Part shown: positions 13,170-64,000 of the stretch, piece after piece
Position numbering within the stretch: position 1 is the first letter of the stretch
How the letters are laid out: each line of letters begins with the position of its first letter
Source: Thiobacillus sp. SCUT-2
Lineage (GTDB): Bacteria; Pseudomonadota; Gammaproteobacteria; Burkholderiales; Thiobacillaceae
Length of the DNA stretch: 64,000 bases
Reading direction: 5' to 3'
Assembly: GCF_035621355.1 (NCBI RefSeq)
Contig: NZ_CP141769.1
Coordinates: 186,001-250,000 of the forward strand
Position numbers and translations under genes: made by a program
Notes under the pieces: generated by a model
Databases searched by the model: none
The model's input: only the letters and a program-made list of their open reading frames with translations
What the model was told of the DNA's origin: nothing

Positions 13170-13170
13170 C

Positions 13171-13785: not shown

Positions 13786-13796
13786 GGAGCCTTTCC

Positions 13797-26094: not shown

Positions 26095-26839
26095 TCCCCA
26101 GCAGGCCTGCTACCGCCTGCTCCGCCTGTGCCGCCAGCTCACGGCGGTGGCCGGCGGGCTGGATCGGTGCGCCGAAGTGCAGCTCGGCGACGAGGCCGGG
26201 CGCGCTGACGATCTGCGTGAGGCTCTGCCACAGGCTCATCTCGTCGATGTAGGCCGGCGCCGCGCTGTACGCGCCGCCCGGCGTGCGATAACGCAATGCC
26301 GCCGGCACGATGGGGCAGTCGAGCTCGACCGCGGGCTGCAGCAGCGACGGCAGGAAGCGGCGCAGCGCGCGGCCATCGCTGGTCGTTCCCTCCGGGAACA
26401 CCGCGACCCAGGCTCCGCCTTCCATCAGCGCGCGCATCTCGGCGTTGACCCGCGCGGTGTCGGCGCGGCGCTTGCGCTCCAGGAACAGCGTGCCGGTCTT
26501 GTGCGCCAGCCAGCCGGCGACCGGCCAGGCGCGGACCTCGGATTTCGAGACGAAGTGCACGCGTGCCGCGGCATAGATCAGGTAGACGTCCAGCCACGAC
26601 ACGTGGTTGCAGACCAGCAGCGCGCCGCCGGGAAGGCGCGGCGCGGCCGCCACCCGGGCGTCGACGCCGAGGATGCGCAGCAGGCGGCGCGACCAGCGCA
26701 TGATGAGCGCATCGCGCCGTGCGGCGCCGGCGAGCGGAAACGCCAGTCCGGCGAGCGCCACGCCCCATGCCACGTGCAGCAGCAGCAGGCTGATGCGCAG
26801 GGTTCGGCGGAGCGGGACGGGCAGATGGCGGAGGATCAC
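26030..26839 (-). CDS. olsA: Lyso-ornithine lipid O-acyltransferase (PlsC family)
   Basis: A 269-residue PlsC-type acyltransferase with a GTG start (26839). An N-terminal membrane segment is at about 13-40. The HX4D motif NHVSWLD is near residue 75, and FPEGTTSDG near 148. It lies 52 bases downstream of an OlsB-type gene on the same strand, so by context it is OlsA: it would add the second acyl chain to make ornithine lipids. A general 1-acylglycerol-3-phosphate acyltransferase is the alternative. Its 3' end overlaps apaH by 65 bases. Confidence 0.82.
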
Positions 26840-26891
26840 CCCGCTATTGTAGAGGCGCTTGGGACAGGCACCGCTGCGTGGACCATCGCAT

Positions 26892-27641
26892 TCAGCCGAG
26901 CAGCCGGCGCGCGTAGCTCCGATTGAGCTGCGCCATCGGCAAGAGCATCAGGAGGTCGGCGGTGTTGAAGTCGGGGTCCCAGGCCGGCTCGCCGCATACC
27001 ATTGCGCCGAGGCGGGCGTAGCCCTTGACCAGCGGCGGCAGCGTGACGACCTGGCCGTTGTCGAGCGATTCGACCGGCAGGCGTGCGCGCGGGGTCGTGT
27101 GCCATTCGATCGGCGCCAGATGGCGCGCGGCAAGCTGGCGATACGCGTTCGCGGCCAGGTGGCCGCCGTCGGCCATGCCGATGCTGGCGCAGCCGATGAT
27201 GTATTCGTACCCGTAGCGCGTCATGTAGGCGGCGAGCCCCATCCACAGGCGCGCGATGACGGCGCCGCTGCGGTGCGCCGGATCCACGCACGAGCGCCCC
27301 AGCTCGGCCATGCGCGGGCGCAGGAAGTGCAGCCGCGTGAGATCGAATTCCTGTTCGGAGTAGTAGCTGCCGACGCGCTTGGCCGCATCCGGCGGCAGGA
27401 TGCGGTAGGTGCCGACGACTTCGCCGGCGTCGAGATCGCGAACCAGCAGGTGGTCGCAGAACGGATCGTAGAGATCGATGTCGTGTCCCGGCAGGACGGT
27501 GCTCAGGCGTGCGCCGAGCTCGCCGGCGAACACCTTGTAGCGCAGGCGCTGCGCCTCGCGGATTTCGTGGTCGTCCACCGCCAGCGCAACGTGGTAGCGG
27601 CCGGCGGAGGCGGAAGGCAGGTGACGGCGAACATCGAGCAC
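26892..27641 (-). CDS. olsB: L-ornithine N-alpha-acyltransferase (OlsB-like)
   Basis: A 249-residue protein from a GTG at 27641, with AAGGAG eight bases upstream. It resembles OlsB/hemolysin-like GNAT-fold N-acyltransferases: REAQRLRYKVFAGELGARL, IDLYDPFCDHLLVRD, VVGTYRILPPDAA, LGRSCVDPAHRSG, and LPPLVKGYARLGAMVCGEPAWD near the end. It would link a 3-hydroxyacyl chain to ornithine. The PlsC-family gene directly downstream supports an olsBA unit for phosphorus-free membrane lipids. Confidence 0.88.
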   Translation of the reverse strand: MLDVRRHLPSASAGRYHVALAVDDHEIREAQRLRYKVFAGELGARLSTVLPGHDIDLYDPFCDHLLVRDLDAGEVVGTYRILPPDAAKRVGSYYSEQEFDLTRLHFLRPRMAELGRSCVDPAHRSGAVIARLWMGLAAYMTRYGYEYIIGCASIGMADGGHLAANAYRQLAARHLAPIEWHTTPRARLPVESLDNGQVVTLPPLVKGYARLGAMVCGEPAWDPDFNTADLLMLLPMAQLNRSYARRLLG

Positions 27642-27763
27642 GGGGCACTCCTTGGATGGAATGCGCCCAGCTTAGAGACGGGGTGTTAAGACCCCGTGAC
27701 GAGCGGGTTGCGGAAAGATGACCTTGCCGCGCGAGCCGCAAGGGTCGCGCGCGCAGGGCCGCT

Positions 27764-47942: not shown

Positions 47943-48782
47943 ATGACGAACATGCTCGGACCGCGCACCCCCAGCCCCCCTGCGCCCAAGATGTCGGAAA
48001 CGCATAAATTCCCCTTCGGTTTCAGGGGGCGACGCAAGCCCGACGAGTGGGACAAGACGATCATCGCGTTCGAGTCCCCGTACCGGTTGAAGGACTTGTG
48101 CATTCCGCAGGTCGACGCCCCGAACCCGGCCTCGGATACGGTCCAGCAGCAGAAATTCAAGATCCGTCTGGCCAGTTCGGACACCCGGCGCCAGTCGGCG
48201 AGCATGCTGATCGAGAAGCGCTATGCCAGCCGGGGGTACCAGGCCCGCGCGCTGGAAGAGGATCCCCAGCGCATCACCGTGCTGGTCTTCATGGAGGAGA
48301 AGATCGTCGGCACCACCACCCTCGGGCTCGACGGGCCGGCCGGTCTGATGGCGGACAGCGTGTACAAACAGGAAATCGACAGCCTGCGGGCGCAGGGGCG
48401 AGCGGTGTGCGAATTGACCAAGCTCGCGATCGACGACGAGCATGTCGACTCCAAGCACATCGTTGCGGTGCTGTTTCATCTCTGCAAGATCTACGGCCAG
48501 AACATCCACCATGCGACCGATTTTGTCATCGAGATCAACCCGCGCCATGCCTCGTTTTACAAGAAGCTGCTGGGATTCGAGGATTTCGGGCCGGAACGGG
48601 TGTGCCCGCGCGTCAACGCGCCCGCCGTCCTGCTGAGGCTTCCGCTGCAGTACGCCGACGAACAGATCGCGCGTTACGGCGGCATGATGAAGGCGGCTGC
48701 GGGCGTTCGCTCGCTTTATCCGTATTGCTTCTCCAAAGACGACGAACTCGGCATTGCCGGGCGGCTGATCCGGGGAGAATGA
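47943..48782 (+). CDS. FeeM-type N-acyltransferase, PEP-CTERM/exosortase-associated
   Basis: About 279 residues. The start is uncertain: ATGs at 47943, 47952 and 47991. An inverted repeat at 47918-47936 makes earlier starts unlikely. The core resembles FeeM/N-acyl amino acid synthases and the PEP-CTERM-associated acyltransferase family (GNAT-like): FKIRLASSDTRRQSASMLIEKR, ITVLVFMEEKIVGTTTLGLDG, VCELTKLAIDDEH, and FVIEINPRHASFYKKLLGF. It would join an acyl chain to an amine. It starts a three-gene unit with ThiF-like and nitroreductase-like genes. Confidence 0.78.
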   Translation: MTNMLGPRTPSPPAPKMSETHKFPFGFRGRRKPDEWDKTIIAFESPYRLKDLCIPQVDAPNPASDTVQQQKFKIRLASSDTRRQSASMLIEKRYASRGYQARALEEDPQRITVLVFMEEKIVGTTTLGLDGPAGLMADSVYKQEIDSLRAQGRAVCELTKLAIDDEHVDSKHIVAVLFHLCKIYGQNIHHATDFVIEINPRHASFYKKLLGFEDFGPERVCPRVNAPAVLLRLPLQYADEQIARYGGMMKAAAGVRSLYPYCFSKDDELGIAGRLIRGE

Positions 48783-48821
48783 TTTGCCGATCGCCTGTCA
48801 TTGCGATGCCGGATTCACCGG

Positions 48822-49685
48822 ATGAGCCTGTTCGATTATCACGAGGCCTTCTCGCGCACGCTCGGATGGGTGACCGAAGCGGAACTCGAGCGCCTGCGTG
48901 GAAGCCGGATCGCGATTGCCGGCATGGGCGGCGTCGGCGGCTTTCATCTGCTGACGCTCGCGCGCCTGGGGATAGGTTCGTTCAACCTGGCGGACTTCGA
49001 CAGCTTCGCCCTGGTCAATTTCAACCGGCAGGCCGGCGCGGCCATGAGCACGCTGGGGCGGCGCAAGCTCGACGTGATGTCGGAGATGGCGCGCGACATC
49101 AACCCGGAGCTCGACCTGCGCCTTTTTCCCGATGGGGTGACCGAGGGCGTGCTGGATGAATTCCTGGCCGGGGCCGACCTCTTTGTCGACGGCCTCGATT
49201 TCTTTGCGCTCGACATCCGCCAGGCCGTCTTTGCCGCATGTGCCCGCAAGGGAATCCCGGCAATCACCGTCGCGCCGCTGGGCATGGGGGCGGCATTGCT
49301 CAACTTCATGCCGGGGCGGATGACGTTCGACGAGTACTTCGGCTTTGGGCGGAATGCGCACCTGGAAAAGGCCCTCCGCTTCTTCGTCGGCCTGGCGCCC
49401 GCGCGGCTGCAGATGGGCTATCTCGTCGACCCGGCACGCATCGACCTCGGCAGGCAGCAGGGGCCTTCCACGCCGATGGGATGCATGTTGTGCGCGGGGG
49501 TGGCCGGGACGGAGGCCTTGAAGATCCTGCTTGGCCGGGGCCGCGTATACGCCGCCCCGTGGGGCGTGCATTACGACGCGTTCAAGAACCGGCTGGCCCG
49601 CACCTGGCGGCCCGGCGGCAACGACCGCAATCCGCTGCTGCGTTCGGCATTGTCCCTGGCGCGTCGGCGCCTGCTCGGAAAATGA
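48822..49685 (+). CDS. ThiF/MoeB/E1-like adenylyltransferase
   Basis: A 287-residue protein from ATG 48822. The ATP site is RIAIAGMGGVGGFHLLTLAR near residue 28. DFDSFALVNFNRQ follows near 59 and FVDGLDFFALDIRQ near 110. The C-terminal crossover segment GCMLCAGVAGTEALKILL contains two Cys. E1-like enzymes adenylate the C-terminus of a carrier protein or a substrate carboxylate. No ThiS/MoaD-like carrier is nearby. The nitroreductase gene overlaps its stop (ATGA). A ThiF-nitroreductase fusion (MoeY) is known in mycobacteria. Confidence 0.85.
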   Translation: MSLFDYHEAFSRTLGWVTEAELERLRGSRIAIAGMGGVGGFHLLTLARLGIGSFNLADFDSFALVNFNRQAGAAMSTLGRRKLDVMSEMARDINPELDLRLFPDGVTEGVLDEFLAGADLFVDGLDFFALDIRQAVFAACARKGIPAITVAPLGMGAALLNFMPGRMTFDEYFGFGRNAHLEKALRFFVGLAPARLQMGYLVDPARIDLGRQQGPSTPMGCMLCAGVAGTEALKILLGRGRVYAAPWGVHYDAFKNRLARTWRPGGNDRNPLLRSALSLARRRLLGK

Positions 49686-50758
49686 GCATACCGAGCCCGG
49701 TCCGGGAGGTGATCGAACTCGCGCGCTGGGCGCCCAGCGGCGACAACACGCAGCCGTGGCGCTTCGAAATCGTTGACGCGCACCATTTCATCGTCCATGC
49801 CTTCGATACGCGCGAGCACTGCGTCTACGATCTGGATGGCCATCCCAGCCAGATTGCGGTGGGCGCGATGCTCGAGACGCTTGCCATCGCCGCCAGCGCG
49901 CACGGGCTGCGCGCCGTGGTCGGCCGCCGTCCCGGGTCGCCCGACACGCATCCTGACTATTCGGTCGAGCTGGTGCCGGACGCCGCCATCGCGCCTGATC
50001 GCCTGCTGGACGCCGTCAAGCGGCGCACGGTCCAGCGTCGCCCCCTGCGCACGGATCGACTTTCGGCAGCCGACAAGCTGGCACTCGAGGAAGCCGTCGG
50101 CGACGGCTTTTCCGTGTGCTGGTTCGAAGGCGCTGGCCTTCGCTGGCGCCTGGCCCGCCTGATGTTCGCGAATGCCCGGCTGCGCCTGACCATGCCGGAA
50201 GCCTATCTCGTCCATCGCGACATCATCGAGTGGCAGGCGCAGTACAGCGAGGACAAGGTGCCCGACCGGGCGCTCGGCCTGGACGCCGGAACGCTCAGGC
50301 TGATGCGCTGGGTGATGGGCAGCTGGCAGCGGGTCCGCTTCTTCAATACCTGGCTGGCGGGGCACCTCACGCCGCGCATCGAAATGGATCTGCTTCCGGG
50401 ATTCCTGTGCGCGGCGCACTTCGCCATCCGTGCCCGCACGGCGCCGAAGACCGTGGACGACTATGTCGCGGCTGGACGGGCCGTGCAGCGCTTCTGGCTG
50501 ACGGCGACGAACCTCGGGCTGCAATTGCAGCCGGAGTTGACGCCGCTGATATTCAGCCGCTACGTCCGCGAGGGCGTGGCGTTCAGCGGGATGCCGGGCG
50601 CGCGCGAAACGGCCGAGCGGCTGAACCGCCGTCTTGGCGGGATTCTGCAGGGCGTTCCGCTCGATCAGGTGGCCTTCCTCGGGCGCATCGGACGCGGCAG
50701 GCCGGCCACCAGCCGCTCGCTGCGCCTGCCGGTCGAGCGGCTGATGCGCGGCGACTGA
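49682..50758 (+). CDS. Nitroreductase-like flavoprotein
   Basis: A 358-residue protein from ATG 49682, overlapping the ThiF-like stop. The N-terminus ELARWAPSGDNTQPWRFEIV is the FMN-binding nitroreductase signature. The C-terminal region (AAGRAVQRFWLTATNLGLQLQP) also fits the fold. It is longer than standard nitroreductases, with an inserted helical region near 150-240. Paired with an E1-like protein it may oxidise or reduce an activated substrate; that is an inference. It converges on the DUF1302-like gene one base away. Confidence 0.82.
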   Translation: MSIPSPVREVIELARWAPSGDNTQPWRFEIVDAHHFIVHAFDTREHCVYDLDGHPSQIAVGAMLETLAIAASAHGLRAVVGRRPGSPDTHPDYSVELVPDAAIAPDRLLDAVKRRTVQRRPLRTDRLSAADKLALEEAVGDGFSVCWFEGAGLRWRLARLMFANARLRLTMPEAYLVHRDIIEWQAQYSEDKVPDRALGLDAGTLRLMRWVMGSWQRVRFFNTWLAGHLTPRIEMDLLPGFLCAAHFAIRARTAPKTVDDYVAAGRAVQRFWLTATNLGLQLQPELTPLIFSRYVREGVAFSGMPGARETAERLNRRLGGILQGVPLDQVAFLGRIGRGRPATSRSLRLPVERLMRGD

Positions 50759-50759
50759 T

Positions 50760-52244
50760 TCAGAAGCTGTAGCGCACCTCGGTGTAGACGCGATCCCTGC
50801 TGTCGTAGATGCCGAACAGGCCGGTGGGCGGGCCTTCGAAGACGTCGACGCCGGTGGCGAGGCGCCAGTGGTCGTCCATTTTCCAGGTGAGCTTGAACTG
50901 CGCCAGCCAGTCCGCGCGGTTCAGGCTGCGGATCAGCAGCAACTCGGGTTCGAGGCGGGGATGCAGCGCCTGGGTCGAAAGCAGGAGCGACACGCCGCTT
51001 TCGGTCGCGTCGGGCACGATGCCGGGGTCGTGGTTCGCGAACAGGCGCTGGTAGAACTGCACGTTGACGCGGGTCTCCTGCGGGAAGCTCCACTCCAGCC
51101 CGACGATGTAGTCGAGAAAATTCTGCTTCACGAGGCCATCGGCGTCGGCCGGGTCGAGCGTGCTGAAGAGCTTGTCCCGCGTGTAGACCGCCTCTGCCTT
51201 GAGGACCATCGGGCCGAGATCCTTGGCCAGCGTGGCGCCCAGTTGATGGATGCGCTTGTGGACCGGGAGGTAGGTGATCGTCGTCAGCGAGGTCTCGCGC
51301 GAGAACGCGGCCGAGGGGTCGTTGGCGGTGTAATAGAAGCCGGATACGTCCCAGCCGTCCTCGAGCCACGACAGTCGGGCGCCGTAGCCTGCATCGTCGA
51401 GGCCGGTCGGCTTCCGTTCCTTGGCGATGACGGTCTGGTAGCCGGGCGTGGCGGGGGGGACGAAGGGGTAGAACTCCGCGCCCGGCTTGCCGATGTCGTC
51501 ATAGGTCATGTAGGGGATCCAGATGCCCTCGGCATGGAAGGCGCCGGAGAAATATTCCGCGCGTGCTGCCCATTGCGGGATGCGGATCATGTCGAAATCG
51601 GGCAGGACAAACTGCCGCATGTCCTTGGCGGACACGACGTCGGCAAAGAACAGCCCGACCATCTCGCCCCAGACGATCTGCTGGCGGCCGACCCTGAAGT
51701 CCAGTCCGGCCGCGGAGAAATCCAGGTAGGCGTCGCGAATCATCGCCTCGAAGCGCTGGTCGCGCCGCACTGCGCTCGGGTAGTAGTCGGTGAGGTCGTA
51801 GATCGGATCGTAGTTGACCCGGCCGCCGAGCTTCCATGCGCCGACCCCCGCAAGGCGGCCGCTGGTCGCGACGTCGAGCGTGTTGTTGAAGCGTGACCAG
51901 TGGCGGTCGCCCGCATAGGTGTAGGCCAGGTCGTTCTGGAAGAAGCCGGTCACCCGCGAGGCCGGCGACGCGGGTTGCGTGGCTTCCGCGACGGGCGCCG
52001 CAACCTCCGGCACGGGCTTGTCGGCGGTACCGGCGGCCGGCGGCACCGCGCCGGCCGGCTCGGTGCGGGGCGCGGGCTGGGGCGCAGCCGGCGGCGCGTC
52101 GCCGAACAGATCGTCGAGCGACTGCGCGTCCGCCTTGTCCGCCGCAAGCGCCGGCGCCGCCATCATGAGTCCGAGCACCAGCCCGCCGACCAAGGTTGAA
52201 GCGCGGCCTCGCCGCGGACGATTGCTACCGGATCGCAAACCCAC
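50760..52244 (-). CDS. DUF1302-like outer-membrane beta-barrel protein
   Basis: A 494-residue protein from a GTG at 52244 with GGGAGA about eight bases upstream. The signal peptide ends near APALA (residue 34). A Pro/Ala-rich stretch runs to about 95. The rest is an alternating, aromatic-rich barrel-like domain (GFFQNDLAYTYAGDRHWSRF, FRVGRQQIVWGEMVGLFF) ending in ...YTEVRYSF with a terminal aromatic. It resembles DUF1302 proteins, often found with RND or Lol-like export genes. It follows the FHA-ABC ATPase gene by 10 bases. Confidence 0.82.
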   Translation of the reverse strand: MGLRSGSNRPRRGRASTLVGGLVLGLMMAAPALAADKADAQSLDDLFGDAPPAAPQPAPRTEPAGAVPPAAGTADKPVPEVAAPVAEATQPASPASRVTGFFQNDLAYTYAGDRHWSRFNNTLDVATSGRLAGVGAWKLGGRVNYDPIYDLTDYYPSAVRRDQRFEAMIRDAYLDFSAAGLDFRVGRQQIVWGEMVGLFFADVVSAKDMRQFVLPDFDMIRIPQWAARAEYFSGAFHAEGIWIPYMTYDDIGKPGAEFYPFVPPATPGYQTVIAKERKPTGLDDAGYGARLSWLEDGWDVSGFYYTANDPSAAFSRETSLTTITYLPVHKRIHQLGATLAKDLGPMVLKAEAVYTRDKLFSTLDPADADGLVKQNFLDYIVGLEWSFPQETRVNVQFYQRLFANHDPGIVPDATESGVSLLLSTQALHPRLEPELLLIRSLNRADWLAQFKLTWKMDDHWRLATGVDVFEGPPTGLFGIYDSRDRVYTEVRYSF

Positions 52245-52254: not shown

Positions 52255-53238
52255 CTATTCCGTTATTTTGCCGTCTGCCAGTTCGATCACCCGGTCCGCC
52301 ATCTCCATGACCCGCCTGTCGTGGGTCGAGAAGATGAACGTCGTGCCTTCCTCGCGATTCAGGTCCTTCATGAGCTGAAGGATGCTTTCCCCGGTCCTGT
52401 GATCGAGGTTGGCGGTCGGCTCGTCTGCCAGCACGATTCCCGGATGGGTCGCGAGCGCGCGTGCGATGGCGACGCGCTGGCGCTGGCCGCCGCTCAGCTC
52501 GTTGGGGCGGTGGTGCGCGAAGCGCTCCAGGCCCACGACCTTGAGGTAATGCGCGACCCGCTCCTGCCGCGTGTTCTTGTCGACGCCGCGCTGTTGCTGC
52601 AGCGGGAACTCGACGTTCTCCCAGGCCGACAGAACCGGCAACAGATTGAAGGTCTGGAAGACGAATCCGAGCGTGTTCAGTCTGAGATCCGCCAGTTCGT
52701 CCGCGGTCCTGCCGCTGACGTCCTGTCCCTTGATGCGGATCGTTCCGGTGCTGGGGGTGTCGATGCAGCCGATCAGGTTGAGAAGCGTGGACTTGCCGCT
52801 GCCGGACGGCCCGGCGAGGGCCATGAACTCGCCGCGTGACACCGTCAGGGACACGTCCTGCAAGGCCACGACCGTCTGCTTGCCCAGCACGTATTCCTTG
52901 CCGGCCCGGCAAACTTCCACGACCGCCTCGCCGGGTTCGCGGGCAGGTCCTTCTTCGGCCAGGAACTCCAGCTGGAACGGGGGGATGAGAATCCTGTCGC
53001 GGTGCTGCAATGGCTCGCGCTGGACCTTGACGGCGTTCAGCTGCACACCGCTCTTGCCCCCGGCGTCCTCCACGTAATAGACGCCGTCGACGCGGACGAT
53101 CCTCGCGTGCCGCCGGCTGACCCCCTTGTCGACCAGCTGGATCTCGCACTCCGACGAGCGGCCGATCTCCAGGCTGGCCTTGTAGAGCGGGATCTCGCGC
53201 AGAATCTGCTGTCCCTGGCGTATCAGGATGCTGGCCAT
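52255..53238 (-). CDS. FHA-domain ABC transporter ATPase (LolD/MacB-like)
   Basis: A 327-residue protein from ATG 53238. Residues 1-95 form an FHA domain: LEIGRSSECEIQLVDKGVSR and RHARIV with conserved Gly-Arg, Ser-Arg-x-His, and a later Asn (QLNAV). Residues 105-327 are a LolD/MacB-type ATPase: Walker A GPSGSGKST, signature LSGGQRQRVAIARALA, Walker B VLADEPTANLD, H-loop STHD. FHA domains bind phosphothreonine, suggesting control by a Ser/Thr kinase or self-assembly. No kinase is visible in the window. Confidence 0.93.
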   Translation of the reverse strand: MASILIRQGQQILREIPLYKASLEIGRSSECEIQLVDKGVSRRHARIVRVDGVYYVEDAGGKSGVQLNAVKVQREPLQHRDRILIPPFQLEFLAEEGPAREPGEAVVEVCRAGKEYVLGKQTVVALQDVSLTVSRGEFMALAGPSGSGKSTLLNLIGCIDTPSTGTIRIKGQDVSGRTADELADLRLNTLGFVFQTFNLLPVLSAWENVEFPLQQQRGVDKNTRQERVAHYLKVVGLERFAHHRPNELSGGQRQRVAIARALATHPGIVLADEPTANLDHRTGESILQLMKDLNREEGTTFIFSTHDRRVMEMADRVIELADGKITE

Positions 53239-53386
53239 CGCCCTGCCCTTTTGTCATCGCGGCAGAGAGCAAGCGCGCATCCGACGTACGCCTTGCCCTG
53301 CCAGCTGGCACCAACACGAACCCGTTTTAATCGTCGCAATATAATAGCCGATAATGTTTTTTCCCCGCTCGGAGCCGACCGCCGCC

Positions 53387-54211
53387 ATGAAGACGCTGCT
53401 TGCCGACAGGCTACGTTTCTCCGTATCTCGCTTGTTTCGAAGCAGGGGGCGCGCGCTGTGGGCATCGGCGCTGGTGTCCGTGCTGCTTGTCGTCCTCGCT
53501 GTTCCGGCTCGTGCAGAGGAGACGGGCGGGGGGAACGCGCTCGCGCGCGAGATGCTGTTGCGCGCCGACCGCATCCGCTTTCCGGATCAGGGATTCCGTG
53601 TCGACGTCACGATCACGACGACCCAGCCCGGCAGCGAGCCCGAGGTGCGCGCCTACCGGATCCTTTCGAAGGGCAACACGCGGACCCTGGTGCAGACGAC
53701 CGCGCCTGCGATCGACCGCGACCAGATCCTGCTGATGCGCGACCGTGATCTCTGGGCCTTCCTCCCGAACCTGTCCCAGCCCATCAGGCTTCCGCTCGCG
53801 CAGCGGCTGACCGGGCAGGTGGCGAACGGCGATCTCGCGCGCGCCAATTTTTCCGGCGACTACGAGCCGACGTTGCTGCGCAGGGAAACGATCGACGGCG
53901 AGACGTACCAGGTGCTGCAGCTTGACGCCGTGGACAAGTGGGTGACCTACCGGCGCGTGATCTACTGGGTCAACGCAAGCAGCTTCAGGCCGTTCAGGGC
54001 CGAGTACTACGCCCTTTCCGGGCGCTTGCTCAAGACCGCGCGCTACCAAGATTTCAAAAGTCTGGGTGGAGCGATTCGCCCGACGCGCCTGGTGATCGAC
54101 GATGCGCTGCGGCAGGGCAACCGTTCCATCCTCGAATACAGCAACATGGTCGAGCGCGACCTGCCCGACAAGGTGTTCACCAAGGACTACCTGAAGAAGC
54201 TGGTTCCTTGA
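53387..54211 (+). CDS. LolA-like outer-membrane lipoprotein-sorting protein
   Basis: About 274 residues from ATG 53387 (53354 is an alternative ATG). A long signal/anchor runs to about 42 (AVPARA). The mature domain has LAREMLLRADRIRFPDQGF, VRAYRILSKGNTRTLVQ, MRDRDLWAFLPNLSQPIRLP, and YWVNASSFRPFRAEYYALSG. It fits the LolA-like 'outer membrane lipoprotein-sorting' family. It lies on the opposite strand between the FHA-ATPase and permease genes, so it is expressed separately. It is the likely periplasmic carrier of this export set. Confidence 0.82.
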   Translation: MKTLLADRLRFSVSRLFRSRGRALWASALVSVLLVVLAVPARAEETGGGNALAREMLLRADRIRFPDQGFRVDVTITTTQPGSEPEVRAYRILSKGNTRTLVQTTAPAIDRDQILLMRDRDLWAFLPNLSQPIRLPLAQRLTGQVANGDLARANFSGDYEPTLLRRETIDGETYQVLQLDAVDKWVTYRRVIYWVNASSFRPFRAEYYALSGRLLKTARYQDFKSLGGAIRPTRLVIDDALRQGNRSILEYSNMVERDLPDKVFTKDYLKKLVP

Positions 54212-54242: not shown

Positions 54243-55454
54243 TTACACGTTGTGGCGCAGCGCGTCCACGACGCCAAGCCGTGAGGCGCGGCGCCCGGGC
54301 AGGACGGCGGCGAACACGGCGGCAAGCATGCCGATCGCTGCCGCCGTGAGCAGCACGGCCGGCACCACCCGGATGCTTGCGATGTAGCCGATGTTCGAGC
54401 CGGGCGGCGGCGGCATGGGAAGGCCGATGGCCGAAATGATGCCGGCGAGCGCGACCCCGATGCCGACGCCGAGCGCGCCGCCCCCGCACCCGAGCAGGAC
54501 GTTTTCCAGCATGATCAGCTTGAAAAGCTGAACGCGCCGCAGGCCGACCGCGAGGAGCGTCCCGAACTCGCCGGTGCGCTCGAAGAGCGTCATGTTGATG
54601 GTGCTGGCGACGCTCAGCACGAGCATCAGCAGGATGATGAACTGCAGGGCCCCGAACTGCCGCTTGTAGAGCGCGACGGTCTTGCCGTAAAAATCGGCGA
54701 GCTGGTACCAGGTCTTGACCTCGTAGCCCTGCCGCTCGAGCTGGTGGCGGAGGGCGCCGGCCACCTCGTCGGTGGCGGCGGTGTCGTCGAGCTGCACGAC
54801 CAGGCTGTGGACGGCTGGCGTCGCCAGCAACTCCTGCGCCGCCGCCAGGGGAATCCGCACGGCCCGGTCGTCGTAATCCCTGGAAAAGGTGCGGAACACG
54901 CCGACAACCTGGACTTCGACCGTGTTGAGCGCGCCGTCGGGCGTCGTGACCATCAGGGTCAGGTAACTGCCCGGCTTCAGTTGCAGCGCCGCTGCGACGC
55001 CTTCGCCGATCGCCGCGCCATAGGCGTCGCCGTCCTGCAGCATGCGCCCGGCGACCAGCGTCGTGGCAGTGCCGAGGCGCGCCTCCTTGCCCGGCTCGAT
55101 CCCCTCGCCAAGAATCGGCAGGTCGGCCTGGCCGTTGTTGGCGAGGCCGGAGAAATTGAGCCGCGCCATGACCTCGCGGACATGGCCGGCCTGTCGCAGC
55201 GTCGCGATCACGTTGCGTGGCTCGCCGATGAAATAACGGGACGGATCCCGCTGACCGTGTTCGAGGTAGCCGCGGCGAACGATCTGCAGATGGCCGAGGC
55301 GCGAGTGAATCGTCGACTCGCGCAACTGGACGAAGGTGTCCTCGATGAATCCGCCGCTGATGATGATGGCGGTGACGCCAGTGACGATCGCCGCCAGCGT
55401 CAGGGCGGTCCGTCCGCGGTTGCGGAAGATGTTGCGGAAGGCGAGCTTGAACAT
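54243..55454 (-). CDS. FtsX/MacB-like ABC permease (second)
   Basis: A 403-residue protein from ATG 55454. It has an N-terminal membrane span (RTALTLAAIVTGVTAIIIS), a periplasmic MacB_PCD-type domain of about 220 residues, and three C-terminal spans with FGALQFIILLMLVLSVASTI and RTGEFGTLLAVGLRR. It follows the first permease gene by 13 bases. LolC/LolE-like topology fits a heterodimer with the FHA-ATPase. Confidence 0.9.
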   Translation of the reverse strand: MFKLAFRNIFRNRGRTALTLAAIVTGVTAIIISGGFIEDTFVQLRESTIHSRLGHLQIVRRGYLEHGQRDPSRYFIGEPRNVIATLRQAGHVREVMARLNFSGLANNGQADLPILGEGIEPGKEARLGTATTLVAGRMLQDGDAYGAAIGEGVAAALQLKPGSYLTLMVTTPDGALNTVEVQVVGVFRTFSRDYDDRAVRIPLAAAQELLATPAVHSLVVQLDDTAATDEVAGALRHQLERQGYEVKTWYQLADFYGKTVALYKRQFGALQFIILLMLVLSVASTINMTLFERTGEFGTLLAVGLRRVQLFKLIMLENVLLGCGGGALGVGIGVALAGIISAIGLPMPPPPGSNIGYIASIRVVPAVLLTAAAIGMLAAVFAAVLPGRRASRLGVVDALRHNV

Positions 55455-55467: not shown

Positions 55468-56727
55468 TCAGATGTTGTGTCGCAGCGCGTTGACGATCTC
55501 CTGGCGCGACGCCTTCCAGGCCGGGTAGAGCCCCGCGAGCAGCGTGGTCAGGAACGCGATCGAGAAGGCGCTCGCCAGGAGGCCGGCCGTGACCCGGATG
55601 GCCCCGGTATAGCCCTCCTCCATGCCGGGAGGCGGCGGCATCGGAATGCCGACCGCCGAGATCAGGCTGGCCAGCGCATAGCCGATCGCGATACCGACGA
55701 GCCCGCCGGCGACGCCGAGCAGGAAGCCCTCCGCGGCGAACATCTGCAGGACCTTCCGGCGTTTGAGTCCGATCGCCAGCAAGGTGCCTACCTCGCCGGT
55801 CCGTTCCATCACGCTCATGATGAGCATGTTGGAGATGCTGAGCACGATGATCAACCCGATGATGAGGCGCAGGACGTTGATCTGCTGGGTGAAGAGCGCG
55901 ACCGTCTTGTTGTAGAAATCGGCGTGCGCATACCACGGGACGAATTCAAGGCGGCTCCGGCTCTCCGGGAAGCGCGCCCGGAATTGCGCGAGAAAGTGAT
56001 CGGTCTGCCCGGTTTCGCGGAGCAGGACCAGCCACGCATGCGCGCCGCGCACGCGCAGCAGGGACTGCGCTTGCTCGAGCGGCAGGCGCAGGGCCGCGTT
56101 GTCATAGGCTTGATTGGTGCTCGTGAAGATGCCGGCGACCCGGGCCTCGATCGCATTCATCCCGCCGCCCTTGGCCGAGGTGAGCAAGGCCACCTTGTCG
56201 CCGGGCCGGACGCCGAGATTGCGCGCGAGGCCGTGGCCGAGTATCACCTCGGCGGCATTCGGGCCGGAGAGATCATGTCCCTGCATGATTCGCAGCCCCT
56301 TGCTGAGTTCGGCTTCCCTGGCGGGGATGACGCCCTCCGCGAGAAAGCCGACGGTGGTCTCGCCGTGGCTGATGAGTCCGCTCACCTTGAGGCGCGGCGC
56401 GACCAGCTTCACCCCGGGCGTGGATTCCAGTTCCTTCAAGACCGGCGAATTTTCCGGCAGCAGGTAGGCAAGCGGATCAGCCACGCCTCTGCTGAAGTAG
56501 CCGGGGCGCACGACCTGGATGTGCCCCGACTGGAACTGGATGGTACCTTCCCGCATTGCCCAGAATATCCACTGGATGAATCCTTCGGCGAGTACCATGG
56601 CGATGACGCCGACCGCGATGATGACCAGCGCAGTGAGCGCGCGTCGCCGGTTCCGCAGCAGGTTGCGCTGGGCGACTCGGAAATTGGCAGCCAGGTCGGA
56701 TAGGTGTTCCACGAGGGATTCTTGCAT
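55468..56727 (-). CDS. FtsX/MacB-like ABC permease (first)
   Basis: A 419-residue protein from ATG 56727. Topology: one N-terminal span (RALTALVIIAVGVIAMVLAE), a large periplasmic domain, and three C-terminal spans with LRLIIGLIIVLSISNMLI and ERTGEVGTLLAIGLKRRKV. It is similar to the second permease, which suggests ancient duplication. It heads a minus-strand unit that also includes the second permease; the FHA-ATPase and barrel genes lie about 1 kb further on, after an oppositely oriented gene. Confidence 0.9.
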   Translation of the reverse strand: MQESLVEHLSDLAANFRVAQRNLLRNRRRALTALVIIAVGVIAMVLAEGFIQWIFWAMREGTIQFQSGHIQVVRPGYFSRGVADPLAYLLPENSPVLKELESTPGVKLVAPRLKVSGLISHGETTVGFLAEGVIPAREAELSKGLRIMQGHDLSGPNAAEVILGHGLARNLGVRPGDKVALLTSAKGGGMNAIEARVAGIFTSTNQAYDNAALRLPLEQAQSLLRVRGAHAWLVLLRETGQTDHFLAQFRARFPESRSRLEFVPWYAHADFYNKTVALFTQQINVLRLIIGLIIVLSISNMLIMSVMERTGEVGTLLAIGLKRRKVLQMFAAEGFLLGVAGGLVGIAIGYALASLISAVGIPMPPPPGMEEGYTGAIRVTAGLLASAFSIAFLTTLLAGLYPAWKASRQEIVNALRHNI

Positions 56728-56888
56728 GTCGGTATGCCCGTGCGGTCAACCAATTTAGTATATTTCGCGGACATGGGGAAACGGTGCCCGGGCGCTCCGG
56801 GGGGACGGCTATCGCGTCCGGGGCGACGGGCCAAGGGGCGAGCAGCCATGAAGGGGAGCAAATCCGCAATGGTGAAGGCGTGACCGGG

Positions 56889-58118
56889 ATGACTCCCGCG
56901 AGGCGTCGCATTCTGTTCATCGCCGAGGCGGTCACCTTGGCGCATGTCGCACGCCCTCTTTCCCTGGCGCGGACGCTCGATCTTTCGCGCTATGAGGTGG
57001 TCTTCGCGTGCGACGGGCGTTTCGACAGGCTGCTCGATATGCCGGGCTTCACCCGCCTTCCGCTCGAGTCCATATCAAGCAGCCAGTTTCTCGAGGCCTT
57101 GGCACGCGGAAGCCGGCTTTACAGCAGGGCGACCCTCGATGCCTATGTCCAGTCCGACCTCGAACTGATCCGGACCTGCCGTCCGGACGTCATCGTCGGC
57201 GACTTCCGCTTGTCGCTCTCCGTGAGCGCGCGGCTCGCCGGCACGCCCTATGTCACCGTCAGCAATGCCTATTGGAGCCCCTACGCGTGGCCGCGCTTTA
57301 CCGTCCCCGAACTGCCGATGCTCAGGGTCACCGGCGAGCGGCTCGGACAGCGTCTCTTCGACGTGGTGCGCCCCTGGGCCTTTCGCTACCACGCGCTCCC
57401 GCTGAACCAGCTGCGCAGGCAATACGGGCTGCCGGCCCTTGGGCTCGATTTGCGGCGGGTGTATACGGATGCGGACTACACGCTGTACGCGGATATTCCG
57501 CAACTGGTTCCGACTTTTGGCCTGCCCGAGACGCATGCCTATGTGGGCCCCACCCTGTGGTCGCCGGCCGGCGCCTTGCCCGCGTGGTGGGATACGTTGC
57601 CCGACGACAAACCGGTCGTCTACGTCACCCTCGGCAGTTCCGGCCACGCCGGCATGTTGCGGACAGTGCTCAAGGAACTGGCCGGCCTGCCTGTGACCGT
57701 CGTCGCGGCGAGTGCCGGCAAGGAGGTGCCGGTGGGCATCCCGGCAAATGCCCACGTCGCGGATTTCCTGCCGGGGGAGGAAGCTGCCCGGCGGGCTGCG
57801 ATGGTGATTTCGAACGGGGGAAGCCAAACCAGCTATCAGGCGCTTGCGCAGGGCAAGCCGGTGATCGGCATCCCGTCGAACCTGGATCAATACCTGAACA
57901 TGCACTACGTCGAGGCGACAGGTGCCGGACGCATGATTCGCACGGGATCCGTCGCCGGCTCGATTGCCGATGCGGTTCGAGACATGCTGGGGAATGCGCG
58001 CTATGCGGCAGAGGCGGACCGGCTGCGGCAGGCCATCGCGGATTATCCTTCCCGCCCCGCCTTCGAGGCCGTGCTTGCACGAGCCGCCGGCGCAGCGGAA
58101 GGATCAGGTGGAGCGTGA
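56889..58118 (+). CDS. Glycosyltransferase, GT1/UGT-like
   Basis: About 409 residues from ATG 56889 (a GTG at 56880 is possible). It has a GT-B fold: N-terminal RRRILFIAEAVTLAHVARPL, linker PVVYVTLGSSGHAGMLRTVL, and the C-terminal donor site AAMVISNGGSQTSYQALAQGKPV followed by IPSNLDQYLN. It is probably a cytosolic glycosyltransferase acting on a lipid or polysaccharide acceptor. It begins a plus-strand run with a hexapeptide acyltransferase and a methyltransferase. Confidence 0.85.
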   Translation: MTPARRRILFIAEAVTLAHVARPLSLARTLDLSRYEVVFACDGRFDRLLDMPGFTRLPLESISSSQFLEALARGSRLYSRATLDAYVQSDLELIRTCRPDVIVGDFRLSLSVSARLAGTPYVTVSNAYWSPYAWPRFTVPELPMLRVTGERLGQRLFDVVRPWAFRYHALPLNQLRRQYGLPALGLDLRRVYTDADYTLYADIPQLVPTFGLPETHAYVGPTLWSPAGALPAWWDTLPDDKPVVYVTLGSSGHAGMLRTVLKELAGLPVTVVAASAGKEVPVGIPANAHVADFLPGEEAARRAAMVISNGGSQTSYQALAQGKPVIGIPSNLDQYLNMHYVEATGAGRMIRTGSVAGSIADAVRDMLGNARYAAEADRLRQAIADYPSRPAFEAVLARAAGAAEGSGGA

Positions 58119-58226: not shown

Positions 58227-58901
58227 ATGCGTAAGATCGGTATCGGAGAAATCGTGCTTTTCCTCGTGCTGCTCGGCGGCGTGCTCGGCGTGACATTTTT
58301 CACGACACGATTCCTGCTCGGCACCCTTCCGCTTGGCGACTTCCGCGGTGTCATCCTTGTCGTTGCAGGCGTGCTCATCTTCTATGTCTTCGCGTTCGTC
58401 GTCTATCGGCTGTTCATGTTCGTCATGCCGCTTCGCGAGGGAGAAATTGCCGAAAAATCGCGCGAGGAGTTCGGTTACCACGTCTATGTGCTGTTCTACC
58501 TGCTCCTGTTCTATCCGTTGATGCGCAGCGGCGTTGTTCCGATTCCCGTGATGCGCCTCGTCTACTTGGCGCTGGGCGCACGCCTGGGGGCGAACACCTT
58601 CAGCGCCGGAATCATCCTCGACCCCCCGTTCATCGAAATCGGGGCCAATTCGGCGGTGGGGCAATATGCCTTGCTGGTGCCGCACGTGATCGAGGGCCGG
58701 CGCTTGGCCCACTACAGGATCGTCATCGGCAATAACGTTACGGTGGGCGCCCATGCGGTGGTACTTTCCGGCGTGACCATCGGGGACGATGCCATCGTCG
58801 CCACGGGTGCGGTGGTTCCGAAGGGAACCCGGATTGGAGCCGGCGAGGTTTGGGGGGGGGTTCCGGCCCGCCTGATTCGTGGCGGACAGGAAGTCGAATG
58901 A
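58227..58901 (+). CDS. Membrane-anchored hexapeptide-repeat acyltransferase
   Basis: A 224-residue protein from ATG 58227. Two N-terminal spans (residues 7-30 and 40-65) are followed by a left-handed beta-helix of hexapeptide repeats: IGNNVTVGAHAVVLSGV and IGDDAIVATGAVVPKG, ending VWGGVPARLIRGG. It resembles sugar O-acetyltransferases of polysaccharide loci, but the membrane N-terminus is unusual. It lies between the glycosyltransferase and methyltransferase genes. Confidence 0.85.
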   Translation: MRKIGIGEIVLFLVLLGGVLGVTFFTTRFLLGTLPLGDFRGVILVVAGVLIFYVFAFVVYRLFMFVMPLREGEIAEKSREEFGYHVYVLFYLLLFYPLMRSGVVPIPVMRLVYLALGARLGANTFSAGIILDPPFIEIGANSAVGQYALLVPHVIEGRRLAHYRIVIGNNVTVGAHAVVLSGVTIGDDAIVATGAVVPKGTRIGAGEVWGGVPARLIRGGQEVE

Positions 58902-60029: not shown

Positions 60030-60980
60030 TCAGGCGGAGCGGCGACGCGAGGCGCTGACGCCCAGAGCGGCCAGGCCCAGGCCGAGCAGCGCAAGGGAGC
60101 CCGGCTCGGGAACCGTAAACGACTGGTTCGCGTCGGCCTGGAAGATGAAGCTTGCACCATCGAAGGGAGCGCCGTTCACCGTGCCCAGCGTGCCCACGGT
60201 CGTGATGCCGCCGGCCGTGCAGGTGCTGGTGTCGGTGTTCATGCACTGCGACGGGTCGACCTGATTGAACGGGGCGACCTGCGAGGTGTTGAACAGAGAG
60301 AGGATCAGCATCTGCGCCACGTTGAGGTCGGGGAAGTAGTTGCCGTTCACCGAATCGACAACGAAGGTCAGGTCGCTCGCACCCGAGCCGGTGACGGATT
60401 GCTGACCGCTCCAGTTGTCGGCCTTGCCTGCGCCACCTTGGTCCAGCAGGACCGGCGTCGAGTTCGACACGCTGAAGTTGCTGCTGTCCGTGTGTGCCAG
60501 ATGGCCGCTCAGGATCGGCGCGCCATTGACAAAGCCGGCGCCGGTGAGGTTGTTGCCGATCGCGCTGGTTGCGTAGATGTTGAAGTAGTTGACCGGGTTG
60601 GTGGGGTCAAAGGTGAACGTCGCGGTCGTGCCGGCGACGGAGTTAACGCGCTCGCCGAAGCCCATGATGGCCGTGAAATAGTTGCCGCCCAGGCCGTTCA
60701 TGAACAGCGGGGTGGTGTCGGCCGCCTGCATGGTCCCCAGATTCGCCTGGTAGTACAGGGTGAAGGCGGTGGAACCGCTTCCCAGAACGTAGTTGTTGAC
60801 AGCCTGAGAGCCGTTCTGTGCGTATGCGGTGCCGGGCGCCCAGTCGATGATGCTGACACCGGCAATATCGCCAGAAGAACCAGCCGTGCCGGTCGGGTCG
60901 AACGTGAAGTCCAGCGCGTGGGCGCTGGCCGATGCGCCGAGGGCGGCCACAACAGCGAGTGAAATCAGATTGAGCTTCAT
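60030..60980 (-). CDS. pepA: PEP-CTERM protein, PepA-like (flocculation-associated family)
   Basis: A 316-residue protein from ATG 60980 with GGAGGCAAAA upstream. The signal peptide ends near SAHA (residue 22). The body (FTFDPTG, NNYVLGSGSTAFTLYYQANLG, FGERVN, NPVNYFNIY, GAPILSGHL, LFNTSQVAPFNQVDPSQC) agrees, from memory, with the flocculation-associated PEP-CTERM protein PepA family. The C-terminus has VPEPGSLALLGLGLAALG then basic residues, for exosortase processing. A sigma-54 promoter lies about 100 bases upstream. It is likely a surface/EPS matrix protein. Confidence 0.87.
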   Translation of the reverse strand: MKLNLISLAVVAALGASASAHALDFTFDPTGTAGSSGDIAGVSIIDWAPGTAYAQNGSQAVNNYVLGSGSTAFTLYYQANLGTMQAADTTPLFMNGLGGNYFTAIMGFGERVNSVAGTTATFTFDPTNPVNYFNIYATSAIGNNLTGAGFVNGAPILSGHLAHTDSSNFSVSNSTPVLLDQGGAGKADNWSGQQSVTGSGASDLTFVVDSVNGNYFPDLNVAQMLILSLFNTSQVAPFNQVDPSQCMNTDTSTCTAGGITTVGTLGTVNGAPFDGASFIFQADANQSFTVPEPGSLALLGLGLAALGVSASRRRSA

Positions 60981-61082
60981 TTTTGCCTCCATGCCTGACA
61001 TATGTGTTTAGTGCGAAGAAGGAATTTCACCCTCTACCGATTTTGTGTCGCCTCTGCGTCGGCGTCCTGCGCACAAAACAAA

Positions 61083-61399: not shown

Positions 61400-64000
61400 C
61401 TACCGCAGCGTGGCGAGGAGCGCGCGCGCGTCCTTCTCGAGCGAGAAGGGGCGGCCTGATTTGAGGATCTGCTCCAGTTCCTTGCGGGCGCCGGCCGAAT
61501 CGCCCGTCTTCACGAGGGCGGCGGCGAGATGGTAGCGGACTTCCGGCAGCCGGGTTCTTGCCGCGGCCTGTCGCAGCAGCTGCAGCGCGCGTGTCGGGTT
61601 GCCCTGCTCCAGCAGCAGCCAGCCGTAGGTGTCGAGCACGATCGGGTTGTCGGGTGCAAGCTGGTAGGCCTTTTCGGCGATGCCCACGGCGCGCGGGTCC
61701 TTCTGCTTCGCGTAGGCCAGCGCAAGGTTGTTCAGCACCGGGACGTTGGCGGGACTCTTGCCGATCACGTATTGATACTGCTCGATCGCCTGGGGGTAGC
61801 GTCCGGATTTGGCGTAGGTTTCCGCGATATAGGCGCGGATCTGGAGATCGCCCGGGTGCTTTGCGAGCCAGGCGAGCAGCGCGTTCTCGGCCTGGGCGCC
61901 TTGCCCGGCGAGACTCAGCGCCTGGTGCAGCTTCATTGCAAAAAGACCGCTGTTGCCGATTTCAAGCGCCTTCGCGTAGGCCTTCGCCGCCGCAGGGTAC
62001 TGTTTCTGCGCCATCAGGATGTCGCCTTCGAGGCCGGCGCCCAGGGGAATGCCCGGATTGGCCTGTTGGACCTGCCGGGCCAGCGCCAGCGCCTCGTCAT
62101 ACTGGCCCGTCTGCGTGTCCAGCAGGATCAGGGCCGTCTGGGCGTCCCGGAACCCGGGCTTGAGATCCAGCGCGCGCTTGAGCGAGGCACGCGCACCGAT
62201 CTTGTCCTGGTTCAGGCTCTGGACGCTCGCGAGCCGCGCATAGGCGAGGGCGGAGCGCGGTGCCAGATTGACCAGGCTGTTGTAGGTGGCGAGGGCGTCG
62301 GTTTTCCGGCCGATCGCCAGCTGCGTCGCACCGAGCAGGTCGAGAACATCGGGATTGCCCGGGTTGTTGGCCTGCGCCTTCTGGGCGACGGCCAGCGCCT
62401 TGGCGGGATCCTTCGACTTCAAATGGTACGCCGTGAGCAGGCGGTACGGCTCCAGCAGCAGGGGCTTCGCCTGGATGGCCTTTTCCATCCACTTGACGTA
62501 ATCCTTGGGCTTCCCGGCAAACATCGACAAGTCGGCAAGATTCATCATGGCGCCGGCGTTGTTCTTGTCGGCGGCCAGTATCTTCTCGAAGCGCGCGGCC
62601 GCCGCCGCAGGATTCTTGTCGGCGAGATCGAGGTTGGCGAGGTTTTCGGCCGCGGGCAGGTAGGTCGGTAGCACCGCCAGGGCTGCCTCGAAGCTCTTGC
62701 GTGCGTTGGCGACGTCCTTTTTGCCGAGATAGGCGCCGCCCTTCAGGTTGTACAGAAGCGGGTTGTTGGGCTGGGCCTTTTCCCAGGACGCGGCGGCAGC
62801 CAGCGCCTTGTCATATTCCTTGCGCTGCAGGTAGGTCACGACCAGCATCGCGTCGGCCTTGACCTGTCGGGGATCCAGCGCAACGGCCGACTCCAGCGCC
62901 GTAATTGCGCTGTCGACATCGCCGGCGCCCAGATGGGCGTAGGCCAGTCCCGTCCGCACCGTGGCATTCCTGGGTTCGGTGGCCGCGGCGCGGTCGAGGA
63001 ATTCGGTGGCTTTGCCGAAGTCCTTGGTCTGGCTGTAGGCGGTTCCGGCGAGTGCCAGCAGCAGCGGGTCATCGGGACGCTTGGCGAGCTGCGTGTTGAG
63101 GATGCGCAGGGCGTCCTGCGGCTGATTCAGCTTGAGCTTGGTCGCCGCGAGCACCGTGCTTGCATAGCCGTGGTCCGGGAATCGGGCAAGAAAGCGGGAC
63201 AGGTCCTGGTTGGCCTGCTCGTAGGCGCCGAGCGAGAACGAGACGGCGCCGGAGAGCAGGACACTTGGCATGTGGTCCGGCATGTTGCGCAGGATCTCCT
63301 GCAGTTCGCTGTCGGCCTGCCGGAACTTCTGCATGCGGAAATTCACCATGGCCTCGTTGTAGCGGACCCGGACATTGCCGGGATTGGCCTTGCGCGCCTC
63401 GTGCGCTTCGGCGGCCGCCTTTGCGAGATCGCCGTCCCGCAGGTACAGCCAGATGAGCCCGGAGGAGGCCTGGACATGGCCGCGATCGATGGATTCCGCC
63501 TTCAGGAAGGCGTCCTTCGCTGCCTGGGCATCGTTGCGGGCAAGCTCCAGATTTCCCAGCTGTGCCCATGTGTTCGCGTCGTTCGCGTCGATCTTCAAAC
63601 CGGCGTCGAGTTGCGCCTTGGCCTCGTCCAGCTTGTTGTGCGCCATCGAACAGACCGCGAGATCGCGGTAGGCGGGCGCATACGCCGCGTATGCCTGCCT
63701 GGCATCCTGGAACAGGCTGCACCCCTCATCCCAATGGCCCAGCCCGAGCTGCGCCTCGCCGCGCTGGCGCAGGATCTTGGCGCGGTTGATCGGCGACGTG
63801 TTCGGTCCGGCCTGGATCTGTGCCAGCGTTTCCTTGTAGTGCCCCTGGAGCAGCAGCGCTTCGCCGAGCAGGACCTTGATCGACTCATCGCCGACGCCGA
63901 GCGCGCGCGCGCGCTCCAGCTCCTTTTCGGCCTCGGCCCCCATCTTGCTTCTGACGTAGGTCTCCCCGAGCATCCATCTCGCCTGCGCGTTGTTCGGATC
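61400..64000 (-). CDS. prsT: PrsT: XrtA/PEP-CTERM system TPR protein (5' part off window)
   Basis: The reading frame is open from the stop at 61400 to the window edge, about 866 residues, so the start and signal/lipoprotein region are missing. It consists of roughly 20 tetratricopeptide repeats (for example LDEAKAQLDAGLKIDANDAN, WAQLGNLELARNDAQAAKDA, LAYAHLGAGDVDSAITALE). Length and repeat pattern fit the PrsT family of PEP-CTERM/exosortase loci, where prsK (kinase) and prsR (response regulator) are usually adjacent. A role in assembling or guiding secreted polysaccharide/PEP-CTERM proteins is inferred. Confidence 0.88.
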   Translation of the reverse strand, partial: DPNNAQARWMLGETYVRSKMGAEAEKELERARALGVGDESIKVLLGEALLLQGHYKETLAQIQAGPNTSPINRAKILRQRGEAQLGLGHWDEGCSLFQDARQAYAAYAPAYRDLAVCSMAHNKLDEAKAQLDAGLKIDANDANTWAQLGNLELARNDAQAAKDAFLKAESIDRGHVQASSGLIWLYLRDGDLAKAAAEAHEARKANPGNVRVRYNEAMVNFRMQKFRQADSELQEILRNMPDHMPSVLLSGAVSFSLGAYEQANQDLSRFLARFPDHGYASTVLAATKLKLNQPQDALRILNTQLAKRPDDPLLLALAGTAYSQTKDFGKATEFLDRAAATEPRNATVRTGLAYAHLGAGDVDSAITALESAVALDPRQVKADAMLVVTYLQRKEYDKALAAAASWEKAQPNNPLLYNLKGGAYLGKKDVANARKSFEAALAVLPTYLPAAENLANLDLADKNPAAAAARFEKILAADKNNAGAMMNLADLSMFAGKPKDYVKWMEKAIQAKPLLLEPYRLLTAYHLKSKDPAKALAVAQKAQANNPGNPDVLDLLGATQLAIGRKTDALATYNSLVNLAPRSALAYARLASVQSLNQDKIGARASLKRALDLKPGFRDAQTALILLDTQTGQYDEALALARQVQQANPGIPLGAGLEGDILMAQKQYPAAAKAYAKALEIGNSGLFAMKLHQALSLAGQGAQAENALLAWLAKHPGDLQIRAYIAETYAKSGRYPQAIEQYQYVIGKSPANVPVLNNLALAYAKQKDPRAVGIAEKAYQLAPDNPIVLDTYGWLLLEQGNPTRALQLLRQAAARTRLPEVRYHLAAALVKTGDSAGARKELEQILKSGRPFSLEKDARALLATLR

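Follow-up and report, generated by a model that had tools for sequence, protein, structure and literature searches.

A three-gene operon at 47943..50758 of the window, the whole 64,000-nucleotide stretch of the Thiobacillus sp. SCUT-2 genome analysed here (contig NZ_CP141769.1, positions 186,001 to 250,000), very probably encodes a pathway like those of OxzAB and TyzABC, leading to an acyl-oxazolone (azlactone) or an N-acyl-2,3-dehydro-amino acid. The operon contains the genes for a FeeM-type N-acyl amino acid synthase, a ThiF-type adenylating enzyme and a flavin-dependent oxidase (FDO) of the nitroreductase superfamily, which most likely acylate an amino acid with a fatty acid before closing and oxidising the conjugate into a ring. 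This chemistry is already described elsewhere, and the locus is one further member; what may be new is the possible lipid exporter often present beside the cassette.

Operon genes and proposed chemistry

The sequence-only reading of this DNA had placed three plus-strand genes here, the last two overlapping by ATGA, and named their products as an N-acyl amino acid synthase-like protein, an E1-like adenylating enzyme and a flavin oxidoreductase. The open reading frames, the four-base overlap at 49682-49685 and the matches to PF21926, to PF00899 and NF006077, and to PF00881 bear this out (Table 1). The stop codon of the synthase gene is separated by 39 bases from the likely start of the ThiF gene, ATG 48822, the frame of which is open from TTG 48801. 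The exact start of the synthase gene is uncertain, with an open frame from TTG 47883. The third-position GC content is 0.84-0.85 in all three genes alike, so they behave as expected of coding sequence.

Table 1. Genes of the operon and its surroundings, with positions in the window and supporting matches
Feature	Position	Strand	Evidence
FeeM-type N-acyl amino acid synthase	47943..48782	+	PF21926 E=1.1e-48; PDB 2g0b (solved FeeM) E=2.3e-13
ThiF-type ATP-dependent adenylating enzyme, proposed azlactone-forming cyclase (TyzB role)	48822..49685	+	PF00899 E=2.4e-37; NF006077
Nitroreductase-superfamily flavin-dependent oxidase/desaturase, FDO (proposed TyzC role)	49682..50758	+	PF00881 E=4.2e-9
DUF1302 outer-membrane beta-barrel, possible exit channel	50760..52244	-	PF06980 E=3e-16
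FHA-domain ABC ATPase, LolD/MacB class	52255..53238	-	PF00005 and PF00498; LolD/MacB models below cut-offs
LolA-like periplasmic lipid-carrier candidate	53354..54211	+	PF17131 E=3.6e-46
LolC/E-MacB-like FtsX permease 1	54243..55454	-	PF12704, PF02687; TIGR02212 E=3.9e-22, below cut-off
LolC/E-MacB-like FtsX permease 2	55468..56727	-	TIGR02212 E=4.7e-35, below cut-off
GT1-type glycosyltransferase (MGT/EryCIII-like), possible tailoring enzyme	56784..58118	+	PF06722; TIGR01426 E=9.8e-20, below cut-off; start uncertain
Hexapeptide-repeat acyltransferase-like protein	58227..58901	+	PF00132; TIGR02353 C-terminal region E=1.1e-16, below cut-off
PepA-like PEP-CTERM protein	60030-61001	-	70.2 bits, below cut-off 80
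PrsT, XrtA/PEP-CTERM TPR protein	61400-63973	-	TIGR02917 745.9 bits

The ThiF protein reaches 435.9 bits against NF006077 (PRK08223, an equivalog named 'hypothetical protein'), for which the curated cut-off is 266; this subfamily is present over cut-off in 40 of 369 genomes of a class-wide sample. The FDO matches NF047509 (Acg family FMN oxidoreductase; E=9.3e-34, 117.3 bits, under the 199-bit cut-off) and NF005901 (Rv1355c/TrzS; E=1.4e-32, 112.8 bits). Against the latter model the ThiF protein scores 56.7 bits, and neither of the separate window proteins reaches its curated cut-off of 476 bits, which is set for the fused protein. In its AlphaFold model (predicted local distance difference test score, pLDDT, 94), the FDO resembles Acg (2ymv) most closely among PDB structures, with a Foldseek E-value of 5.7e-12, followed by a nitroreductase-like protein at 3.2e-4. 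The predicted fold is Acg-like despite the score below the NF047509 cut-off. Three features of an acyl-oxazolone cluster are present: the FeeM-type gene supplies the amino acid N-acyltransferase, the ThiF-like protein has the predicted adenylation residues and no recognised carrier beside it, and the FDO with its modelled Acg-like fold adjoins it.

The OxzAB, TyzABC and TrzAS systems each form an acyl-oxazolone by means of an N-acyltransferase, a cyclase of the ThiF type and a flavin-dependent oxidase (PMC10404671, PMC12856293). Transposing the three reactions from these characterised relatives to the window, the FeeM-type enzyme would couple a fatty acyl group, from acyl carrier protein or coenzyme A, to an amino acid, most likely an aromatic one. 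The ThiF-type enzyme would use ATP to adenylate the free carboxylate and the amide oxygen would close the ring, a route in which a carrier protein is unnecessary. The flavoprotein, with FMN (flavin mononucleotide) and O2, would introduce the alpha-beta double bond. Ring closure and desaturation may take place in either order; cyclisation comes first in TrzS, and both orders work in Tyz (PMC12856293). Hydrolysis would yield N-acyl-dehydro-amino acids like kyonggic or thalassotalic acid. The families, the operon and the earlier chemical outline of amine acylation, carboxylate activation and a redox change are all consistent with this pathway.

Gene identity, conserved residues, linkage and predicted fold are established for this locus. 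Several points weigh against its assignment to the acyl-oxazolone pathway. Product and activity are predicted from the genes, and the window proteins score under the cut-offs of NF047509, NF005901 and the two fusion models NF011424 and NF011425. They were likened to OxzAB, TyzABC and TrzAS through published descriptions and family models. In 14 of the 40 ThiF-bearing genomes there is no relative of the window FDO at E<=1e-10, so the flavoprotein is either not obligatory or has diverged. No acyl-oxazolone has been seen in the producers from Massilia, Thalassotalea and Stieleria (PMC12479983), so the ring may be transient.

The last of these points leads to a narrower version of the pathway, which we regard as possible but not the favoured outcome: the pathway would end in an open-chain N-acyl-2,3-dehydro-amino acid such as those of the kyonggic and thalassotalic types, and the oxazolone would be only an enzyme-bound or short-lived intermediate that aids desaturation. 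Massilia kyonggiensis and Thalassotalea, which have a like three-gene operon, are reported to yield dehydro-amino-acid lipids, and the candidate clusters of M. umbonata, which makes only saturated lipids, are described without ThiF and nitroreductase genes (PMC12479983). The reaction order of TrzS points the same way. However, the ring is opened by acids and alcohols during extraction (PMC12856293), so a missing oxazolone may be an artefact, and tyrazolone was found in lipid extracts of Mycobacterium tuberculosis (PMC10404671).

The ThiF residues Asp66, Asn72, Arg75, Gln76, Lys88, Asp129 and Asp132 (counted from base 48804) are invariant in 63 of 63 aligned sequences. We take them to be the ATP- and magnesium-binding positions of the ThiF/MoeB class. 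No cysteine is conserved in 90% or more of the 63 homologues, Cys146 reaching 83% and Cys227 and Cys230 73-75%. The invariant residues and the lack of a conserved cysteine fit adenylation of a small carboxylate, followed by amide-oxygen attack, better than a thioester-forming E1 enzyme. For TrzS, the aspartate of the adenylation motif was shown to matter (PMC12856293). The FDO family has a conserved N-terminal motif, Ala14, Trp16, Pro18, Ser19, Asn22, Gln24 and Trp26, invariant in 35 of 35 sequences.

Five open reading frames of 50-140 amino acids ending in Gly-Gly were found across the 64-kb window, and none was recognised as ThiS/MoaD-like, as judged by eye, with no family search and within the window rather than the rest of the genome. 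One of the five falls in the operon, out of frame within the ThiF gene. Within that scope, the sequence-only reading was right that no ThiS/MoaD carrier accompanies the genes. That the ThiF protein is a true E1-like enzyme activating a protein or sulfur carrier, with the acyltransferase and flavoprotein acting separately, is very unlikely. Membership of the ThiF superfamily would allow it, but the window offers neither a recognisable carrier nor a cysteine at the 90% level, the partial conservation of Cys146, Cys227 and Cys230 notwithstanding. In addition, ThiF proteins of this type occur fused to FDO and FeeM domains, and the window protein scores only 71.5 bits (cut-off 275) against TIGR02356 ThiF, compared with its 435.9 bits to NF006077.

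Co-occurrence of the genes and the acylating partner

The 40 ThiF-bearing genomes, which include that of the window (G000), were compared with 40 genomes without an NF006077 match over cut-off; these controls were hand-picked and not phylogeny-matched. The surroundings of the ThiF gene were surveyed in the 39 other genome loci and in 23 named loci, the latter selected for resemblance to the window ThiF and hence a biased set. Several surveyed loci are cut by contig ends. The locus profiles were home-made from the surveyed loci themselves, and FeeM-like hybrids are among the proteins that one of them, 'TIGRacyl', picks up.

A relative of the window FDO (E<=1e-10) is present in 26 of the 40 ThiF-bearing genomes and in none of the 40 controls. 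It lies within 5 kb of the ThiF gene in 25 of the 26, and far away in the exception, G247. Together with the 14 genomes in which it was not detected, this means that the trio does not always form a unit. A single open frame encodes both ThiF and FDO in 13 of the 39 other genome loci and in 14 of the 23 named loci. Both partners, an acyltransferase and an FDO, are encoded no more than 10 kb from ThiF in 19/39 and 17/23, respectively, by the home-made profiles and with some contigs short. The fusions also exist as families: the two halves of the natural fusion NF011424 (PRK14851) are matched by the window ThiF and flavoprotein, and successive parts of NF011425 (PRK14852) by all three window proteins, with scores under the cut-offs for the entire fusion proteins, as separate parts should give. 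The idea that the three genes are adjacent by accident, for which only the 14 genomes without an FDO match speak, is refuted by the co-occurrence, adjacency and fusion counts and has a negligible probability. A genome-neighbourhood search was the check that the sequence-only reading had proposed, and the fusions and co-location exclude the random association it had named as its refutation.

The acyltransferase is the variable component. PF21926 (FeeM) is matched in 33 of the 40 ThiF-bearing genomes at E<=0.001 and in 29 over cut-off, many of these matches being weak. Six weak FeeM-profile neighbours of ThiF, chosen from 30 open frames, all score 241-281 bits against TIGR03694, the PEP-CTERM/exosortase-associated acyltransferase (cut-off 112). 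The curated TIGR03694 model itself is over cut-off in 29/40 ThiF-bearing genomes versus 5/40 controls. In 25 of those 29 the matching gene is no more than 10 kb from ThiF, the exceptions being G345, G303, G247 and G061. Judged by these profile matches, the usual acyltransferase beside this ThiF is TIGR03694, not FeeM. The window synthase has no match to TIGR03694 at E<=0.001 (cut-off 111.95 bits), and the model has no match over cut-off in the window genome, where the best score is 28.9 bits. These distributions suggest that either TIGR03694 or FeeM synthases may serve as acylating partner.

Exosortase-linked synthases make long-chain N-acyl amino acids (Craig et al. 2011, via PMC11072679, PMC11631085 and PMC8776678; also PMC9762135). 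A statement that they frequently neighbour an oxazolone-type ThiF, often with an FDO, was not found in the literature searched.

Two further observations concern FeeM-profile proteins. A second match in the window, at 27195-27554 on the minus strand, was considered as an exosortase acyltransferase and rejected, its 28.9 bits being far under the TIGR03694 cut-off. It lies in a gene at 26836-27741 (-) with a weak FeeM-profile match, which is overlapped by a gene for an OlsA-like lyso-ornithine-lipid O-acyltransferase at 26030-26839 (-; NF052552 E=4.1e-35, below cut-off). The pair is possibly ornithine-lipid-like, the more likely nature of the second match because of its low TIGR03694 score and the overlap with the OlsA-like gene. 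Elsewhere, in L070, L036, L039 and L059, FeeM-profile acyltransferases near ThiF occur in open frames of 413-504 amino acids. Judged by eye, their C-terminal part resembles a cyclic-nucleotide-binding domain.

Neighbouring exporter-like module and the exosortase tie

The operon is followed by genes for a DUF1302 barrel, an ABC ATPase, a LolA-like protein, two FtsX permeases and a glycosyltransferase (Table 1), and the order from the FeeM gene to the glycosyltransferase gene is identical in the window, in L072 (metagenome-assembled genome BP4.bin37) and in L073 (a Hydrogenophilales metagenome-assembled genome). The DUF1302 protein is modelled (pLDDT 74) as a barrel of the porin type, and its nearest folds include OmpF and AlgE, at TM-scores of about 0.4-0.6; at these values the barrel class is clear and the substrate is not.

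In 10 of the 39 genome loci and five of the 23 named loci, three or more of the four exporter families are encoded within 10 kb of ThiF. Orthologues of FtsX permease 2 (E<1e-75) occur in 13 of the 80 genomes, 12 of the 40 with ThiF (including G000) and one of the 40 controls. Their distance from ThiF is at most 13 kb in 11 of these 12 ThiF-bearing genomes. In L082, from a Bdellovibrionaceae metagenome-assembled genome, the genes FeeM-ThiF-ABC-FtsX-LolA-FtsX run in one direction (about 8600-14800), and no FDO gene was found within that locus. A glycosyltransferase gene lies within 10 kb of ThiF in 2/39 genome loci and in 11/23 named loci, the latter count biased by selection on the window ThiF.

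Exosortase (PF09721) is encoded in 38 of the 40 ThiF-bearing genomes versus 15 of the 40 controls (Fisher p ~4e-8, with controls not phylogeny-matched). The sequence-only reading had put the operon next to an exosortase region. This wording is only loosely right, because the window holds the PrsT gene and the PepA-like gene at 60-64 kb, but no exosortase gene; the two of this genome are at C1:373334 and C1:2022483, and the closer of them is about 137 kb away from the operon.

The gene neighbourhood suggests lipid export. Going by the neighbourhood only, the lipid product may be exported by the FHA-ABC/FtsX/LolA-like/DUF1302 module, and perhaps glycosylated by the glycosyltransferase, within an XrtA/PEP-CTERM surface programme. 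We put this forward as a tentative addition to the pathway, rather doubtful as a whole. It draws on the gene order common to the window, L072 and L073, the distribution of the permease orthologue and its closeness to ThiF, the co-directional run in L082, the excess of exosortase genomes and the modelled resemblance of the DUF1302 barrel to AlgE/OmpF-class channels. Methylomonas LW13 lost its polysaccharide band and the ability to grow in a gradient device when an exosortase-linked N-acyl amino acid synthase was disrupted, and regained both on complementation (PMC11072679). On the other hand, at E<1e-75 the exporter is missing from 28 of the 40 ThiF-bearing genomes. G277 has an exporter with a glycosyltransferase and a hexapeptide gene (L097, 3438-12160) on a contig other than that of the cassette. 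In G091 (L095-L096) the exporter genes are spread across about 13 kb, and the genome has neither a ThiF over cut-off nor an FDO match. G091 also carries TIGR03694 and exosortases. The association may be with the exosortase locus instead of the lipid, and the hand-picked controls limit what the counts can decide. A link between cassette and exporter was not found described in the literature searched, which consisted largely of titles, abstract beginnings and passages; Craig et al. 2011 may contain part of it.

A wider view, speculative and in our estimate unlikely, is that in exosortase-bearing proteobacteria the oxz/tyz-type cassette forms one half of a surface-lipid system within the PEP-CTERM matrix programme. 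The FHA-regulated ABC/FtsX pump would pull the product, an acyl-oxazolone or N-acyl-dehydro-amino acid to which the GT1-type enzyme may have added a sugar, from the inner membrane; the LolA-like protein would carry it, and the DUF1302 barrel would pass it to the cell surface. There it could even be the small molecule encountered by sorted PEP-CTERM proteins, or the one to which they become attached. The destination and function of acyl-oxazolone lipids are called open in published work (PMC10404671, PMC12856293), and the gene setting offers a testable guess on where such lipids go. What the locus usefully adds is this context, in which oxazolone-type cassettes are tied to exosortase genomes and a candidate exporter is named.

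Comparison with described systems

The sequence-only reading held that the three-gene unit was not described as a pathway. This does not stand: OxzAB, TyzABC and TrzAS are characterised (PMC10404671, PMC12856293), and the operon has been printed for Massilia kyonggiensis and Thalassotalea (PMC12479983). Because the three-gene chemistry has been worked out elsewhere, the locus adds one more producer candidate.

OxzA and OxzB of Pseudoalteromonas rubra, which make acyl-tyrazolones and acyl-phenazolones (de Rond et al. 2021, via PMC10404671 and PMC12856293), share with the window the N-acyltransferase, ThiF and nitroreductase (FDO) functions. OxzB unites ThiF and FDO in one protein, whereas the window has two genes with a four-base overlap. 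TyzA, TyzB and TyzC of M. tuberculosis (PMC10404671) are, like the window proteins, three separate proteins in the same proposed roles, with adjoining ThiF and FDO genes. However, tyzA is on the opposite strand, whereas the window acyltransferase gene is co-directional with the other two, and the tyz cluster is flanked by mmpL9, the window operon by the DUF1302/ABC/LolA/FtsX module. TrzA and TrzS of mycobacteria and Rhodococcus (PMC12856293) also combine an acyltransferase with ThiF and an FDO of Acg-like fold. TrzS is fused, and the system places short acyl chains on tryptophan; the window proteins are separate and below the NF005901 cut-off.

The kyonggic acid, thalassotalic acid and stieleriacine clusters (Sauer et al. 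2025, PMC12479983) were compared by description. In Massilia kyonggiensis and Thalassotalea, a single N-acyl amino acid synthase gene stands with one gene each for ThiF and nitroreductase in what looks like an operon, with frames overlapping or nearly touching, as in the window; the sections of that paper covered here do not mention an exporter-like module. The exosortase-associated N-acyl amino acid synthases (TIGR03694) are likewise tied to exosortase genomes, the window enzyme being of the FeeM type instead.

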